Assembly: GCA_024709145.1 (NCBI GenBank)
Contig: JANJXG010000118.1
Location: forward strand, 1-63,985
Direction: 5' to 3'
DNA: 63,985 nucleotides
Source: Bacteroidales bacterium
Lineage (GTDB): Bacteria; Bacteroidota; Bacteroidia; Bacteroidales; F082
Positions within the stretch are counted from its first letter, which is position 1; the number at the start of each line of letters is the position of its first letter. The position numbers and the translations under genes were made by a program. A model generated the notes under the pieces. The model was not told the origin of the DNA and ran no database searches. It saw nothing but the letters and a program-made list of their open reading frames with translations. This document shows, piece after piece, positions 24,295-31,518 of the stretch.

Positions 24295-25362
24295 TTAGTC
24301 TGCTTGAAAAAAGTAGATTTCACTGAGCGATTTCACCGACCTGTCGGCAAAAAAATCGGCAGGGTGAAAAATCCTGTATCTACCACCTTCGACGCCTTCC
24401 CCGGTCGTTGCCATTATGGCTTCCACTGCATCGTTACGGTTGAATAATTCACTGAAGCTGAAAATGCTGCGGTAACCGTCATGACCTGCAAAGCAGACCA
24501 AGCCTTTCTGTTGCAAAGCATGATCCGCCGGGTCCGAAATGCTGTTCAGCAATCCGGCAAGCGATCCGCCTTCAAAACTTCCAACCGGATGATAACCCTG
24601 TCCCATGCCATAAAAGATGGTTTCATGCTTATTGCGGCAGGTGCCAGCATCTTCAGTCAGAAAAGTTTCAGATTTACCTTCGATAACAAGCTTAACATCA
24701 GGACTATACATTGAAGGCATATTGCGTTGAACGGGATAGTCCTTCCGATCGAATGTTTTAACTGTCACCCTGACAGGGTTGTCCAGATAACGGGCATTGC
24801 TCAGGTCGCCGGCAGCTACCAGCTTCCATGTTTCAGTGCGTGGATATTCCACCTTTCGTTTGTGAGGATCAATTTGGCTGCCTCCGGTCGCGATTAACAC
24901 CTGATGGAGTTTGTTTACATGGAATATTTCGCTCCATGAAAATACAACTTTTTCTTGTTTGTCGTTTTCGATTTCTATGTAAATATCTGTAGCAGGCCTG
25001 AAAACAGATTCATTCTTTTTTTGAAGGATGAATGGGTTTAACAGGTCGAGCAGAGAAAAACCTGTATAGCGGTAGGCTCCAATAAAAGCCGCTGTATCAG
25101 TTGCATTGCTTGTTTCTTTCACAACCACTTCGTGCAGGTAAAGCGTTTTAAGATCTACAGGGCCCGGGTTGGCCACCTCTCCGCCAACTTCCAGCCGGCC
25201 GCAATTCATGCTGAAGGTTGTGGATTGATGATAGACGCTGTTGCCATTTCTCGAAGGCGTGGCTCCTGTTGAAGCATCAACACCCTGCATCGGATTGAAA
25301 TAGATTGTGACCAAAACCGCCAGTGCTGCCACCGGTAACAGAATTTTCAGGAATAATTTCAT
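24295..25362 (-). CDS. Membrane-anchored protein with two sulfite-oxidase-like (molybdopterin-binding-fold) repeats
   Basis: 355 residues. An N-terminal hydrophobic helix (about residues 3-21) anchors or exports it. Repeat 1 (about 50-215) reads like the Oxidored_molyb fold: LEVGGEVANPGPVDLKTLYL, YRYTGFSLLDLLNPFI, then HQVLIATGGSQ and ARYLDNPVRVTV. Repeat 2 (about 225-350) repeats the layout: VKLVIEGKSE, GSFEGGSLAGLLNSI, IFSFSELFNRNDAVEAIMA and the final SEIYF. The Cys that ligates molybdenum in sulfite oxidases is not found at the equivalent place, so it probably binds a ligand rather than catalysing. It is divergent from the ModE-like gene, and a ModE-type element (25373-25396) sits 10 bp upstream of its start. 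Fold assignment is inference. Confidence 0.6.
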   Translation of the reverse strand: MKLFLKILLPVAALAVLVTIYFNPMQGVDASTGATPSRNGNSVYHQSTTFSMNCGRLEVGGEVANPGPVDLKTLYLHEVVVKETSNATDTAAFIGAYRYTGFSLLDLLNPFILQKKNESVFRPATDIYIEIENDKQEKVVFSWSEIFHVNKLHQVLIATGGSQIDPHKRKVEYPRTETWKLVAAGDLSNARYLDNPVRVTVKTFDRKDYPVQRNMPSMYSPDVKLVIEGKSETFLTEDAGTCRNKHETIFYGMGQGYHPVGSFEGGSLAGLLNSISDPADHALQQKGLVCFAGHDGYRSIFSFSELFNRNDAVEAIMATTGEGVEGGRYRIFHPADFFADRSVKSLSEIYFFQAD

Positions 25363-25372
25363 CGGAATAAAT

Positions 25373-25396
25373 CGTTATGTAAATTTTGCATATCGC
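25373..25396. promoter_or_regulatory. ModE-like operator 1
   Basis: CGTTATG (25373-25379), N8, GCATATCGC (25388-25396). The halves form an imperfect inverted repeat (CGTTATG against CGATATG on the other strand). The same sequence and spacing occur at 30095-30118. The arms resemble E. coli ModE operators of the CGTTATAT type as I remember them. Confidence 0.6.
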
Positions 25397-25490
25397 AAAA
25401 TTGAGAATTTAAAGGGTATCTTTGTCATTTTGAACTAATTTAAAGTCATTCTGAATTGGGGTCGGAGCAAATACATTGTCCTTGTCCGGA

Positions 25491-25646
25491 TTATATAGTG
25501 TCTGTCCATAATGTCAGGTGCTTGAGCTTTAAAGTTCGAGGGCAAGGCATGTGCGGAATGAATGTCAGGCGTTTACTAATGTATATGACTGACATGAATG
25601 ACGAACATAACGAAGCCATCGGACTTTAAAGACAAGCACTATATAA
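25491..25646. repeat. 156-bp imperfect palindrome with short terminal inverted repeats (MITE-like)
   Basis: The ends are TTATATAGTG (25491-25500) and CACTATATAA (25637-25646), exact inverted copies. Inside, TGCTTGAGCTTTAAAGTTCGA (25519 on) pairs imperfectly with the reverse of the right-hand stretch ending at 25637, which reads TGCTTGTCTTTAAAGTCCGA. GAATGTCAGG and CTGACATG pair near the centre. There is no ORF of note. It occupies most of the 450-bp gap between the divergent SUOX-like and ModE-like genes. Confidence 0.6.
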
Positions 25647-25812
25647 ATCGCTGAAATAGTTTGCTCTAAGGGTTATTGCAGCTAAGATTGCAGGCTTTCT
25701 GTCAGGTCTGAATAAAAATGAAGCCTGAAGCCATTCCCGGGGGAATGCAAGCTTTGCAGCAAAGATGAAAAACAAGGCCTGAAATATTGTTATCATTGCC
25801 AAAAAAATTGAA

Positions 25813-26205
25813 ATGAGTGAAATCAATCGTTTTCAGTTGAAATTCAAATTCTGGCTCGAAACTGCCGAAGGAGAAAGCCTGATGGGCGAAGGTAAATGGC
25901 TGCTCCTGAAAGCGATCAGAGACACCGGCTCGTTGCAGTCGGCTGTGAAAAAACGCGGATATGCCTATCGTCAGACCTGGGATAACCTGAAGAAACTGGA
26001 AGAAAGACTTGGTTTTCAGCTGATCGAAAAAAGTCGGGGTGGTGAACACGGAGGTTCGACTCGTCTCACCCGTAAAGGCGAGAAGATGGTGGCGTTTTTC
26101 GATCTGCTCTATGCCCAGGCCAATCCTGAACTGGAAAAGCTTTTTCAGGATTTGCTTCAGGAATTGCAGCAGATTTCTGAACCAGAATTGGATTTAGAAA
26201 ATTAA
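25813..26205 (+). CDS. ModE N-terminal-type winged-helix regulator lacking the TOBE/Mop domain
   Basis: 130 residues. The winged helix matches the ModE/LysR type: FWLETAEGESLMGEGKWLLL, then LQSAVKKRGYAYRQTWDNLK (helix-turn-helix) and KSRGGEHGGSTRLTRKGEKM (wing). E. coli ModE is about 262 residues with molybdate-binding TOBE domains at the C-terminus. Here only about 25 acidic residues follow the DNA-binding domain, so metal sensing must be absent or lie elsewhere. It sits between the SUOX-like gene and the TonB receptor operon, both of which carry a ModE-like operator at their starts. No such element was found at its own promoter. Confidence 0.85.
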   Translation: MSEINRFQLKFKFWLETAEGESLMGEGKWLLLKAIRDTGSLQSAVKKRGYAYRQTWDNLKKLEERLGFQLIEKSRGGEHGGSTRLTRKGEKMVAFFDLLYAQANPELEKLFQDLLQELQQISEPELDLEN

Positions 26206-26216
26206 ATATCAATGAC

Positions 26217-28532
26217 TTAAAGCTTATAGGCCAACTCCATTAAAAGAAATCTTCCGGGCCCCACGGCGCCTTTGCTTTCGTAGATTTTTTCGTCCAGGAG
26301 GTTTTGTATGGTCAGGCCAAGATCGAAATGTCTGAAAAACGTACGGCTAAGCTTCAGGTCGAGGGTAAAGGTTGCGGGATATTGGTTGCTTAGCACAATA
26401 TCATCCGTAATATTTTGATCATTGACATACATTTTGCCTGTAAATCTCCCGGTGATGCCTGCATGAACGATGTCAGTGTGAACAAAAGCTGTTGCAGAAA
26501 AGCTGTGTTTGGGCACGTCGGCCAGAAATTTTCCGGTAAGATCCACATATCCGGAAGCCTTTTCTGGTTCAAAACGTTTGATTTTTGAAACCGTGAAGGC
26601 ATAAGCAGCCGAAAGATTTACAAAGCGCCACAGGCTGGCATTGGCCGAAGCTTCAAAACCGTAGATATTGACCTCCGAAATATTGGAACGGATCATGATG
26701 GGCCGGTTACCAAATCCCATGTCGATGCTGTCGCCAGTTGAAACATAATACAGAAAATCATGTCCAACGGAATAGAAAGCGCCAGCCGACAAGCGCAGCG
26801 CATCCCAGGGTTTAAGGTCAGTGCCGATTTCGATGTTATCGAGGTGTTCGGGTTTAAGGTCAGGCCGCGCCACTTTAAACCCGCCGCGTACCCTTCCCGA
26901 CCGACATAAGTCGTCAAGAACGGAGGGTCTGAATCCCCTGCCGTAGCTCAGAAAAACCCTGAAATTGTCCTGAGGCTTGTATTGTGCCGAAAGTCTTGGA
27001 CTCCAGGCTCCCCAATGTTCTCCGGGTAAGTCACTGAACTGATAATGTTCCATAAATTTCGTTTCGGCAGAGGGCTGATGGATCACAAAAGCGCCGTCAT
27101 AGAAACTGGCATCGTCGTAACGCAGGCCGGCGATGAGCTGAAATTTGTCTTCAAAAAAATGCAGCTGATCCTGAACGTAAAATCCGAGAAAACGTATCTT
27201 ACCTTTGTTATCTACCTGATCTGTTGAAGTGTAGTAAATATCTGATGCATCCACAGCACCATGTCGCAAATCAATGCCAGCCGAAAATCTGTGTCTTCCG
27301 GCATTGCGGCTTAGCGAGGTCAGCAAGCCATAATCTTCGCGTACCGAAAGCACATCGTACCAGGTATAGTCATCTTTTTGCCACTCACTCACCCTTTTAT
27401 ACCTTTCGTTCAGGTAAAAGGCAGAGGCATTCCATTCCCAGCCATTTTGCCTGCCAGACAACAGCGCTCTCAGCTGCCAGCTGTCGTGATCGGTGCTGTT
27501 GCCGTATGGCTGATTCACCTTTTCACCGGTTTCGCGCCGGTCGTCAAAAACTGTCACATCCACACTGGCTTCGAATTGTTCAGTTTTATTGTATCCGGCC
27601 CTGAAAGCGAGCATCTTTTCGGCAAAGGAAGAAGGGACGATGTAAGGGTTTGCCTGCTGATCGGCCCATGACTGGGTAATATAACCATCTGAAGCCCTGG
27701 CAAAGGCACCTCCCGACCAGTAAAAACCCGACTGATGCCTTTTGCTTGCAAGCGCCCTGATTCCGCGGGTTTGGTAGGTTCCGTAGCTCAGACCAACAGC
27801 AGCCTGTGTTTTCAGACTTGGTTTTTTTCGGATAATCTGCACGATTCCACCCATGGCATTGCCTCCGTAGAGGGCTGAACCCGGTCCTTTTAGCAACTCC
27901 ACCCGATCAATATCAAGCAAGGAAATCAGGTTCCAGTTCACCGAACCTCCATCAGCTTTGTTCACCGGAACACCATCAACAAGCACCAGTGTCCGGGCTT
28001 GTTCATTGCCTCCCATACCCCGCATGGATACAGTTGATTTGTGGGAAAACAAGCCAAAAGACCGGCTTACCGTAACCCCCGGCAGTAGCGCCAAAACTTC
28101 ATCAACTGAATGGCTTGCTGTTAATTGCAGTTTCTCTGAACTGATAAGTTCGATCCGTCCAGGAAAATCACTGATCTTGTTTTCAGTTCGTGTTGCTGTT
28201 ACAACAACTTCGTTCAACCTAAGTGTTTTTTCGATCAATGCAACATGATTAAGCATTTTCGGGCCGGCTTCTGAAACTTTCAATTCGGTTTGATGGTTCT
28301 CAAACCCAATCGCGGTCACAACAAATTCATAAATACCAGGTTTAACATCATTCAAATTATAATAACCCTCAGCATTGGTGACAGCCACCCATTTTCCAAG
28401 CCTGATGTGAGCGCCTGGTATTGCCTGTCCGGTAGCTTTTTCGCTTACTTTACCTTCAATGTTAACCTGTGCCATCACACTGCCACTTAACAGTAAAAAA
28501 GCGATCAGGACGAAATAACAATGAGTTTTCAT
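26217..28532 (-). CDS. TonB-dependent outer-membrane receptor
   Basis: 771 residues from MKTHCYFVLIAFLLLSG, with a signal peptide (cut near VMAQ-V). A carboxypeptidase-regulatory-like extension (about residues 22-105: VNIEGKVSEKATGQAIPGAH) comes first. A TonB-box-like LNEVVVTATRTENK, plug domain (VDEVLALLPGVTVSRSFG, VLVDGVPVNKADGG, VELLKGPGSALYGGNAMGGI) and a 22-strand barrel ending in Leu follow. NLLDEKIYE is the usual final-strand lead-in. It resembles siderophore, heme and cobalamin receptors rather than SusC. The start overlaps the upstream lipoprotein gene by 4 bp. The substrate is unknown; a ModE-like operator at the head of the operon suggests a molybdenum or tungsten link. Confidence 0.92.
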   Translation of the reverse strand: MKTHCYFVLIAFLLLSGSVMAQVNIEGKVSEKATGQAIPGAHIRLGKWVAVTNAEGYYNLNDVKPGIYEFVVTAIGFENHQTELKVSEAGPKMLNHVALIEKTLRLNEVVVTATRTENKISDFPGRIELISSEKLQLTASHSVDEVLALLPGVTVSRSFGLFSHKSTVSMRGMGGNEQARTLVLVDGVPVNKADGGSVNWNLISLLDIDRVELLKGPGSALYGGNAMGGIVQIIRKKPSLKTQAAVGLSYGTYQTRGIRALASKRHQSGFYWSGGAFARASDGYITQSWADQQANPYIVPSSFAEKMLAFRAGYNKTEQFEASVDVTVFDDRRETGEKVNQPYGNSTDHDSWQLRALLSGRQNGWEWNASAFYLNERYKRVSEWQKDDYTWYDVLSVREDYGLLTSLSRNAGRHRFSAGIDLRHGAVDASDIYYTSTDQVDNKGKIRFLGFYVQDQLHFFEDKFQLIAGLRYDDASFYDGAFVIHQPSAETKFMEHYQFSDLPGEHWGAWSPRLSAQYKPQDNFRVFLSYGRGFRPSVLDDLCRSGRVRGGFKVARPDLKPEHLDNIEIGTDLKPWDALRLSAGAFYSVGHDFLYYVSTGDSIDMGFGNRPIMIRSNISEVNIYGFEASANASLWRFVNLSAAYAFTVSKIKRFEPEKASGYVDLTGKFLADVPKHSFSATAFVHTDIVHAGITGRFTGKMYVNDQNITDDIVLSNQYPATFTLDLKLSRTFFRHFDLGLTIQNLLDEKIYESKGAVGPGRFLLMELAYKL

Positions 28533-29431
28533 TGCTGAATTTTTATTTGGAGTGAAATGGTTCCATCGCTCACTTCGTCGGCATGTTTGATGTTGATAAG
28601 GCCGTATTTTCCATCTTCGGTTCGAAAAGGTACCACGCGGCCACTGTAGGCAAACTTGCACAATCCACTCACATTGCCTGGTTTATAGGTATTTACAAGC
28701 AGGCTGTCGTTAATGGCAGCTTCAAAGGTTTCGGGACTGATCAACTGATTGTCGGAGGTGTAATAGTCGAATGTGGTGGCATTTCGCACAGTCCAGTCAC
28801 CGATGGCCGGATAATGGCCTGTCACCGAGCTGCTGCCTGAATAAGCCGGACAGCAAAGTGTGGGCGACATTACTCCCGAAGTGTAATAAACAAAAGCAAC
28901 AAGGTCGATTTCTGCTTCATGTCCGGCAACCTCTGCTGCGGTGTAGGACGTGCCGGTGTGCAGATCCAGGTATTGTGGAAGTTGCTGATGGTGTTGCATT
29001 CCAAGGTTGATTTCCGGAAAATGAAGAATTTCACCATAAGCTGATCCTTCGCCAAGGAGTACTTCCAGCGTACGGCTCACGGTGTCGCGGTTGGCATTCA
29101 TCACCGTAAAGGACCAAACCTCCCTTTCACGGGCACTTTTGACAGCATTAAAGATGATGTCAAGACCACCTTCTGTGATGTAAAAACCCTTGTCAAGCTC
29201 GGTGATGGTATCATCTTGCAACTGCCGTCTGATGACGAGGTTGGTGAGGGGAGCACTGCCTCCGGTTGCCGTGATCCCAAAGGAAAGTTTCCCGCCTACA
29301 GGCACTTCGCTGCCGTTGACAGTGAAAGTGCCTGTTTTTAAAACAAGCAGTGGTTTCACGGTTGTTTCGGAGGTCTTGCTGCATCCGGCAGCAAAGAACA
29401 GAAGCAAGACCAAAATCAGGAAACGTGGCAT
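28529..29431 (-). CDS. Lipoprotein of the TonB receptor operon (lipoprotein B)
   Basis: 300 residues. Signal peptide with lipobox FAAGC (Cys17). The first half (about 28-130) is an Ig-like beta domain (LLVLKTGTFTVNGSEVPVGG). The second half (about 150-300) is related to the neighbouring lipoprotein A: YLDLHTGTSYTAAEV with IDLVAFVYY, WTVRNATTFDYY and the end EDGKYGLINIKH. An extra Cys-Cys (PTLCCPAY) and a later Cys are not matched in A and may bond or bind a ligand. No catalytic motif is seen. Overlap by 4 bp with the receptor gene suggests coupled synthesis and a surface partner role. Confidence 0.7.
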   Translation of the reverse strand: MPRFLILVLLLFFAAGCSKTSETTVKPLLVLKTGTFTVNGSEVPVGGKLSFGITATGGSAPLTNLVIRRQLQDDTITELDKGFYITEGGLDIIFNAVKSAREREVWSFTVMNANRDTVSRTLEVLLGEGSAYGEILHFPEINLGMQHHQQLPQYLDLHTGTSYTAAEVAGHEAEIDLVAFVYYTSGVMSPTLCCPAYSGSSSVTGHYPAIGDWTVRNATTFDYYTSDNQLISPETFEAAINDSLLVNTYKPGNVSGLCKFAYSGRVVPFRTEDGKYGLINIKHADEVSDGTISLQIKIQQ

Positions 29432-29498
29432 AGCTGCAAGCTTGGGTTGAATGGTTAAAGGGAAGGAATACTTGTTAAAGTGTGAGTACCAGAAGTGA

Positions 29499-30074
29499 TT
29501 ACTTCAGTTTGTATTCAAATTCAACAAAACCTGCAGCACCCTGTTCAACAGCAATCACTTTGAATAAACCGTAAGTTCCGGCAGCCGTTTTAAAAGCGTA
29601 GATATCACCGGTTTTCATATCTTTCTTCTTTCTGTTGCCACTGGTCACGGTCTCATCATAATACCCCTGAATTACCGCATCACCATCTTTGAGCTGATCA
29701 AATTCAGCCACAGTGATTTCCGTAGCCGGATCAGTGAAATAGGTTTGGTTTTTGGTAGTCCAGTTTTCAGGTGCCTGGTCTCCGGTAAAAATGCCGGTGA
29801 TTCCCGTTCCGGGTGCAGCAATGGCAATGTTGTTGCCACCAGCTTCTTCAAAGAAGCAAAGGATGTCGACCTGCGCCTGTTTTCCAAAAGCTTCTGCCAT
29901 AGTAAAGACTGCTTTTTGACTCACCGAAAGGAACCCGCCTGCAGTGGTATTGGCTTGGGCACCAAGTTTGGCAATGTTCTTTTCAGGCGTGTTGTCGTCA
30001 TCTTTTTTGCAGGATGTGAAAATTAATCCGGCTGTAAGCAGCCATAAAAACAAGTGAATCGTTTTGGTTTTCAT
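29499..30074 (-). CDS. Lipoprotein of the TonB receptor operon (lipoprotein A)
   Basis: 191 residues. Signal peptide with lipobox IFTSC (Cys21) followed by KKDDDN, an acidic tail of the kind that directs Bacteroidota lipoproteins to the cell surface. The body (about 45-191) aligns by eye with the C-terminal half of lipoprotein B: FLSVSQKAVFTMAEAF and VDILCFFEE, WTTKNQTYFTD, and AAGTYGLFKVIAVEQG. It is the first gene of the operon, with the ModE-like operator about 20 bp upstream of its start. Unknown family; a ligand-capture role with the receptor is inference. Confidence 0.7.
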   Translation of the reverse strand: MKTKTIHLFLWLLTAGLIFTSCKKDDDNTPEKNIAKLGAQANTTAGGFLSVSQKAVFTMAEAFGKQAQVDILCFFEEAGGNNIAIAAPGTGITGIFTGDQAPENWTTKNQTYFTDPATEITVAEFDQLKDGDAVIQGYYDETVTSGNRKKKDMKTGDIYAFKTAAGTYGLFKVIAVEQGAAGFVEFEYKLK

Positions 30075-30094
30075 GTTTCAATTTAATTTTTAAC

Positions 30095-30118
30095 CGTTAT
30101 GATTTTTTTGCATATCGC
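30095..30118. promoter_or_regulatory. ModE-like operator 2
   Basis: CGTTATG (30095-30101), N8, GCATATCGC (30110-30118): the same halves and spacing as the element at 25373-25396, which is 4.7 kb away, in the same orientation relative to the gene. It precedes the lipoprotein-lipoprotein-TonB receptor operon. Confidence 0.6.
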
Positions 30119-30173: not shown

Positions 30174-30205
30174 AAAACATCATCCCTTATAAAAGGAAAG
30201 TGTGT

Positions 30206-30239
30206 TTTGTTATTTGAAAAGAAAGCTGTTATATATTTG
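30206..30239 (+). promoter_or_regulatory. Promoter TTTG-N22-TATATTTG of the DUF819 gene
   Basis: Exact -7 box TATATTTG (30232-30239) and TTTG at 30206-30209, giving a leader of about 12 nt to the ATG at 30256. The spacer is slightly long. Confidence 0.5.
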
Positions 30240-30255
30240 CCTATTTACTTCAAGT

Positions 30256-31518
30256 ATGGACATCACACTCATAGCGCTGGCACTGTTTTATGTGCTTACC
30301 CCGATTTTAATCCTGCATTTATGTCATCGTTTTCCATTTGTCAACAAACTTGGCTCGGTGATCATTGCTTATCTGATTGGTTTGTTGTTGGGAAACATCG
30401 GACTGTTACCCGGAATGGGCACTGTGCTCAATGAGTATATGTTGTTGCATCCCAAGGCATCGGAGCAGGAGATAGCGTCATTGTTGGCAGCAGGCGACAT
30501 TTCGGCTGGACAGTTTCTGGCTTTCAAAATCTATAAACTGCGCGACCTGTTGATGAGTATAACCATTTTGCTGGCCATACCACTTATTTTATTTTCGGCT
30601 GATATGCGTCAGTGGGGTAAAATGGCAGGCAAAAACCTGGTTGCGTTACTCACCGGCATCGCATCGGTGGTAGTAGTGGTGGTAGCCGGTTTTTTTATTT
30701 TCAGGGGTTTTGGAATGCATGATCTTTGGAAGGTATCGGGCATGCTGGTTGGTGTTTATACGGGAGGCACACCCAACTTGGCTTCACTAAAAATGATGCT
30801 CGATGTCGACGCCAACACCTATATTCTCACGCATACCTACGACCTGATTATTGGCGTGGTTTATCTTTCGTTTTTAATGAGTATCGGTCAGCGGTTGTTC
30901 AATAAATTTCTTCCTGTTTATCCTTACCGACAGGACGATGTACGCATCCGTGATCTGGACGGGAAAGACCCTTTCTGGGGCATTTTCCGCAGACCTGTTT
31001 TTGTGCCTCTTCTCAAAGCTTACGGGCTTGCGCTGCTTATTTTTGGCGTTGCGGCAGGACTCAGCATGCTTGCACCAGACCATCTGACCATGGTTGTCGT
31101 GATTTTGAGCATCACCACGCTTGGCCTGCTGGCTTCACTTTTACGTTCGATCAACAGGATTGAAAAAACTTTTGAATCGGGTATGTATCTTATCCTTATC
31201 TTCAGTCTGGTAGTATCGTCAATGGCAGATATTCGCAATTTTGCAGGAATTACACCCGGTTTGTTTGCCTATGTGACGATGGCAGTTTTTGGTTCACTGG
31301 CCTTGCAGGTGCTGTTAGCACGCGTTTTTAAAATTGATTCCGACACTGTAATCATCACAAGCACTGCAATGATTTGCAGTCCGCCTTTTGTTCCGGTAGT
31401 GGCAGGTGCGCTGAAAAACAAGGACATTATCGTACCCGGCATCACAATGGGTATTATTGGCTATGTGGTTGGAAATTATCTGGGATACCTGATTGCCCAT
31501 TTCCTGAAGATGATGTAA
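30256..31518 (+). CDS. DUF819-family membrane protein
   Basis: 420 residues from MDITLIALALFYVL, with 11 or 12 membrane helices. An upstream in-frame start at 30202 would lie before the -7 box. Family features: NKLGSVIIAYLIGLLLGNIG near the start, VGVYTGGTPNLASLKMML in the middle, and VITSTAMICSPPFVPVVAGA near the end, with the two halves pseudo-symmetric as in bile-acid/Na+ symporter-like folds. The function of DUF819 is not established; a transporter is likely. It is divergent from the ModE-like regulated operon. Confidence 0.82.
   Translation: MDITLIALALFYVLTPILILHLCHRFPFVNKLGSVIIAYLIGLLLGNIGLLPGMGTVLNEYMLLHPKASEQEIASLLAAGDISAGQFLAFKIYKLRDLLMSITILLAIPLILFSADMRQWGKMAGKNLVALLTGIASVVVVVVAGFFIFRGFGMHDLWKVSGMLVGVYTGGTPNLASLKMMLDVDANTYILTHTYDLIIGVVYLSFLMSIGQRLFNKFLPVYPYRQDDVRIRDLDGKDPFWGIFRRPVFVPLLKAYGLALLIFGVAAGLSMLAPDHLTMVVVILSITTLGLLASLLRSINRIEKTFESGMYLILIFSLVVSSMADIRNFAGITPGLFAYVTMAVFGSLALQVLLARVFKIDSDTVIITSTAMICSPPFVPVVAGALKNKDIIVPGITMGIIGYVVGNYLGYLIAHFLKMM

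Follow-up and report, generated by a model that had tools for sequence, protein, structure and literature searches.

A ModE-linked receptor-lipoprotein locus in a Bacteroidales bacterium, probably part of tungsten (or molybdenum) acquisition

The locus described here occupies positions 24295–30118 of a 63,985-nucleotide stretch of Bacteroidales DNA (contig JANJXG010000118.1 of assembly GCA_024709145.1), hereafter called the window, from a 3.8 Mb genome that is 99.35% complete. It encodes an exported SUOX-like protein, a small ModE-type DNA-binding protein, a TonB-dependent receptor and two lipoproteins, LP1 and LP2. The same short inverted repeat stands before the SUOX-like gene and before the operon that comprises the lipoproteins and the receptor. 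In our view, the locus probably provides the half of a tungsten or molybdenum uptake system under ModE control that acts at the outer membrane and in the periplasm. P0001, P0003, P0004 and P0005 lie on the minus strand and only P0002 on the plus strand, as follows:

24295–25362, minus strand: P0001, SUOX-like exported protein with an internal repeat, 355 amino acids (open reading frame)
25373–25395, no strand assigned: operator 1 (predicted), CGTTATG-N9-CATATCG, 10 nucleotides 5' of the P0001 ATG
25813–26205, plus strand: P0002, single-domain ModE-type DNA-binding protein, 130 amino acids, proposed regulator (TIGR00637, ModE structures)
26217–28532, minus strand: P0003, TonB-dependent receptor with a plug and a CarboxypepD_reg-like N-terminal domain (Pfam)
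28529–29431, minus strand: P0004 (LP2), lipoprotein, 300 amino acids (open reading frame, signal region with a cysteine)
29499–30074, minus strand: P0005 (LP1), lipoprotein, 191 amino acids, first gene of the operon (open reading frame)
30095–30117, no strand assigned: operator 2 (predicted), CGTTATG-N9-CATATCG, 20 nucleotides 5' of the LP1 ATG

An initial sequence-only reading of this DNA had reported a 24-bp element, CGTTATG-N8-GCATATCGC, in front of both transcription units, and both copies (25373–25396 and 30095–30118) match it with 0 mismatches in the 16 stated bases. The window holds only these two matches at up to three mismatches, and 100 shuffles of the window yielded a mean of 0.35 matches, with two reached in 4 shuffles. 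Written as a dyad, the element reads CGWTATG-N9-CATAWCG, and the whole genome contains it at up to one mismatch only at the two places in the window. Since it is an inverted repeat, the common orientation that had been reported holds for its asymmetric bases only. The reported identical spacing to the genes was mistaken, as the dyad ends 10 nucleotides before one ATG and 20 before the other. By eye, a TTTG, possibly a −7 promoter element, is seen just upstream of both sites, a putatively repressor-like position. The proximity to start codons could also suit a core promoter motif or a coincidence instead of an operator, but with only two copies in the genome, a fixed spacing and enrichment over shuffles, we regard this explanation as extremely improbable.

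The half-sites resemble those of ModE. In E. coli MG1655, the modA promoter contains CGTTATATTGTCGCCTACATAACG, and the window dyad shares its half-site CGTTAT/ATAACG, with 11 bases between the halves compared to 12 in E. coli. PMC545781 gives the E. coli ModE consensus as ATCGNTATATA-N6-TATATANCGAT, a geometry that leaves 12 bases between CGNTAT and ATANCG. Measured against CGNTAT-N12-ATANCG, the window sites have the half-sites and a spacer of 11, and sites with a spacer of 12 are predicted elsewhere in this genome, before different genes. Both types are named here after the distance between CGNTAT and ATANCG: N11 corresponds to the inner 9-base spacer, and N12, the E. coli type, to an inner 10-base spacer.

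A ModE-type protein is indeed encoded between the two sites. Residues 24–113 of P0002 match TIGR00637 (E 6.2e-20; 71.1 bits versus a cut-off of 98.5), and its three matches among solved structures are two ModE entries and one molybdenum-binding repressor. On the basis of this sub-cut-off family match and the structure matches, P0002 has an N-terminal winged-helix ModE DNA-binding domain. C-terminal di-Mop molybdate-binding domains were not found in it with Pfam or NCBIfam, and the protein stops at residue 130. ModE is the classical molybdate regulator. Like the E. coli ModE/modABC regulon, the locus combines this regulator family with the CGTTAT/ATAACG half-site near a start codon; unlike it, the 130-residue P0002 has no metal-binding domains, a SUOX-like gene and the operon of an outer-membrane receptor are the predicted targets, and the spacer in the window is one base shorter. 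A single-domain ModE consisting of the DNA-binding domain only, with the predicted operator CGGTCACG-N14-CGTGACCG, is described for Desulfovibrio in PMC545781. P0002 shares this architecture with the Desulfovibrio protein, whereas the window retains the E. coli-type half-site.

The genome encodes a second ModE, adjoining wtpA, the gene of a tungstate-binding protein. An exact N12 site precedes this second gene (L085), and another, with one mismatch, precedes the gene of a 722-amino-acid aldehyde oxidoreductase of the tungsten type (L174). Two spacings are thereby found at two target sets within one genome. In two of the eight congeners searched, G004 and G008, the locus is complete and neither site has more than one mismatch (operator 1: 0 in G004 and 1 in G008; operator 2: 1 in G004 and 0 in G008). 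Conservation before the same genes in relatives, which had been proposed as a check, is thus observed in these two genomes. In G003 and G006, the lipoprotein-receptor operon occurs without an adjoining ModE gene and its promoter has an N12 site with two mismatches. The ModE search returned none in G003 and only a distant relative (30% identity) in G006, with an exact N12 site upstream of the latter gene; the SUOX-like gene of G003 sits on a separate contig, 15 nucleotides downstream of an exact N12 site.

Across the order, 54 loci with 181 upstream windows (those of the lipoprotein, receptor and SUOX-like genes plus the gene just before) were scanned with six spacers at up to 2 mismatches in 14 bases. 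N11 was found in 5 loci and N12 in 29, and the spacers N9, N10, N13 and N14 occurred in 0 of the 54 at this threshold. Forty dinucleotide shuffles of the scan gave means of 0.25 (N11) and 0.275 (N12) loci, with a maximum of 2. The P0002 clade comprises six members in the tree (support 0.934), and the N11 loci are five of the six loci that carry it; the sixth, L121, has only a degenerate site with three mismatches. N12 is present in 29 of the remaining 48 loci, where the stretch read shows no member of that clade. N11 therefore occurs exclusively with this clade and N12 exclusively without it (Fisher 3.6e-6, for loci that are not independent: three of the five N11 loci are from congeners, L073 and L074 share a promoter, and certain genomes contribute two or more loci). 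Presence of the clade elsewhere in the genome was checked in 41 genomes. Beyond the congeners, the element thus also recurs in the order, its spacer varying with the regulator clade.

A count at up to 1 mismatch in 12 bases over 75 loci indicates which genes carry the sites. N12 stands before 12 of 15 ModE2-type genes (10 exact) and 8 of 8 AORa-type oxidoreductase genes (none exact). For all other genes the figure is 15 of 699, several of these having a divergent promoter in common with a gene of the types named in this count. It is also found before LP1-type (6/20), LP2-type (5/28), ModE-type (3/14), receptor (2/39) and SUOX-like genes (1/45). N11 precedes LP1-type (3/20), SUOX-like (4/45) and ModE-type genes (1/14), with 3/699 for the others. 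Genome-wide dyad scans in relatives are noisy; as a reversed control pattern matches about equally often or more, only exact or same-gene matches were used from them. In principle, the second ModE rather than P0002 could also bind the window sites, the half-sites being identical, and the spacer difference would then be meaningless. We rate this as distinctly unlikely, because, wherever sites are present, their spacing goes with the presence or absence of the P0002 clade, and because three congeners have N11 at the receptor or SUOX-like genes together with N12 at ModE2.

Gene neighbourhoods connect the locus to tungstate transport. P0001 homologues occur in 74 of the 393 genomes of the order, and 40 of their neighbourhoods were read, a non-random set of the best-scoring ones and a hand-picked rest. 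In 21 of these 40, a gene for WtpA, WtpB or ModE lies no further than 8 kb from the SUOX-like gene; 20 have a lipoprotein plus a receptor there, and 10 have both. The gene immediately upstream is a receptor in 20 cases and WtpA in 6, and the one immediately downstream is WtpB in 8. In L139 (G306), the order on a single strand is WtpA-LP1-LP2-receptor-SUOX-like-WtpB-ATPase, and L133 reads ModE-WtpA-SUOX-like-WtpB-ATPase, followed by genes labelled by eye as moeA, moaA and moaC. The binding proteins tested from the genome itself and from relatives score above the NCBIfam cut-off for WtpA, as expected of a WtpABC tungstate ABC transporter; one permease and one ATPase match WtpB and WtpC below the NCBIfam cut-off. 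WtpABC is an inner-membrane system and differs from the present set, in which it is accompanied by an outer-membrane receptor, lipoproteins and the SUOX-like protein.

Co-occurrence points in the same direction. WtpA is present in 72 of the 74 genomes with a SUOX-like gene versus 52 of the 319 without (odds ratio 185), AFOR_C in 70 versus 81 (odds ratio 51) and the molybdopterin domain PF00384 in 68 versus 158 (odds ratio 11.5). In the genome of the window, WtpA is found at a single location and WtpB once, with two matches for AFOR_C and three for PF00384. Its wtpA and wtpB sit on contigs other than that of the window, so the locus, contrary to what had been suggested, is not self-contained. 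The further suggestion of a molybdate- or tungstate-linked capture system gains support, since the context ties these genes to tungstate transport and tungsten enzymes. Molybdate instead of tungstate as the substrate would suit the classical role of ModE, the prevalence of PF00384 among the SUOX-like genomes and the presence of moeA/moaA/moaC in the same run in L129 and L133 (labels by eye). Nonetheless, the odds ratios of WtpA and AFOR_C exceed that of PF00384, the AORa-type oxidoreductase gene has the operator in all eight cases, and the 6 SUOX-like genomes without PF00384 all have AFOR_C. We thus consider molybdate an unlikely substrate, yet one to be taken seriously.

The receptor was correctly recognized at the outset, as the plug and beta-barrel of P0003 match PF07715 and PF00593, both above the cut-offs. 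The two lipoproteins are related, as claimed: P0005 aligns with the C-terminal part of P0004 at 25% identity (E 1.4e-6). P0004 matches no Pfam or NCBIfam family. P0005 has homologues in 16 of 41 genomes, and its structure model, built from 3 sequences, was too poor for a fold search (predicted local distance difference test score, pLDDT, 52.7). The best NCBIfam match of P0003 is TonB-hemin (E 4e-59; 200.7 bits versus a cut-off of 316.85) and P0005 matches HmuY with E 0.084 (13.4 bits versus a cut-off of 27), which could suggest HmuR/HmuY-type uptake of heme or a siderophore. As both matches stay below the cut-offs and the genome context and co-occurrence favour tungstate, this option was set aside as very unlikely. 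A different possibility is that the cargo of the receptor and lipoproteins is organic, for instance a pterin cofactor or a complex of metal and chelator, and is used together with molybdenum or tungsten, ModE merely reporting demand. TonB receptors usually transport large ligands, and in some related modules a small membrane protein is encoded along with a TiaS/methanogenesis-marker-11-like one. Against this, the unit is interleaved with the oxyanion transporter WtpABC, and uptake of a metal-chelator complex would itself count as tungsten uptake. An organic ligand is accordingly a minority option in our view, improbable to about the same degree as molybdate.

P0001 is the least conventional component. 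It has no match in Pfam or NCBIfam, the family cut-off for SUOX/Oxidored_molyb included. PF00174 is detected in 6 of 40 homologues (best E 0.015), and hhalign against E. coli MsrP gives P 4.9e-4 at a probability of 32%; this single MsrP was used because the PF00174 search for a SUOX alignment found 0 in 60 order genomes. The two halves of the protein align with P 8.6e-4 and a probability of 24%. A profile of the 40 homologues matches no PDB sequence up to E 5, and the structure model from 3 sequences (pLDDT 37.2) was too poor for a fold search. The likeness to sulfite oxidase-fold proteins (MsrP, PF00174) consists of a weak profile similarity around GEVxNPG and GYSLxDIL, and unlike these proteins P0001 has two repeats, no conserved cysteine and no significant family match. 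The duplicated sulfite-oxidase fold proposed initially is therefore plausible, as judged from these weak profile similarities, and unproven. In SUOX enzymes, a conserved cysteine is the cofactor ligand. No cysteine is conserved among the 40 homologues (the best column reaches 19/40 and lies before the conserved core), which makes a molybdenum cofactor enzyme unlikely. The invariant polar residues E62, K82, D106, N133, W143, E145, D186, R191, H258, D295, E305, N308, R309, D311 and D340 point to a binding or catalytic site. At window positions 25250–25280, the N-terminal part of P0001 contains D-x-x-[ST]-x-A-T, which we take to be similar to the ApbE flavinylation motif, and the genome has one ApbE. 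Flavinylation as a family trait was discarded, as only 7 of 42 family members have the motif, the window and both congeners included.

Set beside the observed sites, their conservation and spacing split, the neighbourhoods and the co-occurrence, the reading we prefer, with a probability of roughly 70%, is that the locus supplies the outer-membrane and periplasmic half of a system by which Bacteroidales acquire tungsten (or molybdenum) under the control of ModE. We infer the ligand, the transport and the sign of regulation from what ModE, TonB receptors and WtpABC are known to do; the pairing of proteins with sites and the functions given here to LP1, LP2 and the SUOX-like protein are likewise proposed. 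The surface lipoproteins LP1 and LP2 would capture the metal species and hand it to the TonB-dependent receptor, which would import it into the periplasm in a TonB-driven manner. There, the SUOX-like protein may assist the hand-over to WtpA, after which WtpBC would bring the metal into the cytoplasm for tungstopterin enzymes such as aldehyde oxidoreductase. When metal is plentiful, the single-domain ModE would occupy the dyad at each promoter and repress it. Within the genome of the window, P0002 would use the operators with the inner 9-base spacer (receptor operon and SUOX-like gene), and the second ModE those with the inner 10-base spacer (its own operon and the aldehyde oxidoreductase). A more specific picture falls slightly short of an even chance: Bacteroidales would have a dedicated energy-driven tungsten importer in the outer membrane, made up of surface lipoproteins and a TonB receptor, a metal-handling protein of a new kind would act in the periplasm between WtpA and WtpB, and one base of operator spacing would separate the target sets of two single-domain ModE paralogues.

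Several observations weigh against this reading. At up to 2 mismatches, no site was found in 19 of the 48 loci that lack the P0002 clade, nor in L121. In the 75-locus count, with 1 mismatch allowed, N12 precedes just two of the 24 WtpA genes, and no site was found before WtpB (0/18) or before the genome's own AORb, the second oxidoreductase (0/1); the wtpB of this genome, located elsewhere, has no N12-type site. A third exact dyad with the inner 9-base spacer occurs in G004 (C12:57869), inside an open reading frame of 236 amino acids, probably by chance. Nine of the 40 neighbourhoods have neither lipoprotein and receptor nor Wtp/ModE genes nearby. PF00384 is enriched as well, which makes molybdenum a candidate too, and the 4 of 74 SUOX-like genomes without AFOR_C all have PF00384. 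Finally, the best named family of the receptor is a heme receptor, albeit below its cut-off.

Receptor and surface lipoprotein pairs such as HmuR/HmuY and SusC/SusD are familiar in Bacteroidota. The passage of tungstate and molybdate across the outer membrane is usually ascribed to porins, and to our knowledge no outer-membrane importer for either has been established. BtuB/BtuG is another pair of a TonB receptor and a surface lipoprotein in Bacteroidota, according to PMC10404256. The present locus resembles these three pairs in joining receptor and lipoprotein in a single operon, and differs from them in that its lipoproteins have no family match above cut-off and in that ModE replaces control by Fur or a riboswitch. 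No TonB-dependent tungstate or molybdate system of Bacteroidota was found in the open-access literature searched. The components are all of known kinds; new are their combination, the apparent ligand and the split in operator spacing. If the reading is right, a TonB-dependent route would explain how anaerobes supply tungsten enzymes from trace metal, and a receptor-lipoprotein family without a ligand would gain a likely one. The spacing split between the ModE paralogues would represent a natural experiment on how operator geometry keeps duplicated regulators apart, and the gene set is small enough for testing metal sensing by a single-domain ModE.

Some further features of the locus and its relatives deserve mention. 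A gene for a DUF819 membrane protein (30202–31518) is divergent from LP1, so that both have the operator region in common; of the loci read, only those of G004 and G008 also have it next to the operon. An additional LP1 relative is encoded in the same genome (G000:C110:8605-8985; L022, L086), with no Wtp or ModE gene nearby within the stretch read, and several relatives have similar copies. An Rfam scan of the window, L139, L150, L133 and L121 returned one tRNA as the sole match. Two of the four SUOX-like genomes without AFOR_C, G070 and G399, contain a molybdopterin protein frame of about 908 amino acids with one in-frame TGA (G070:C153:13328-14605 and G399:C51:9067-10344), perhaps a selenocysteine formate dehydrogenase. 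An aldehyde dehydrogenase is encoded near ModE genes in L082 (11308-12936) and L129 (10902-12563), with similar genes in L076, L078, L079 and L083. The L129 copy is an L-glutamate gamma-semialdehyde dehydrogenase by NCBIfam, and exact N12 dyads lie 31 and 24 nucleotides upstream of two copies; the enzyme is perhaps a tungsten-free partner of the oxidoreductase. Lastly, a second module combines a related lipoprotein with a TiaS/methanogenesis-marker-11-like protein, a small membrane protein and, in most cases, a TonB receptor (L077:4667-10235, L079:8441-11075, L081:5701-10841, L120:3046-8021 and L134:3041-8239). It directly follows the ModE gene in L079 and L120, and exact N12 dyads are present at L077 and L079.

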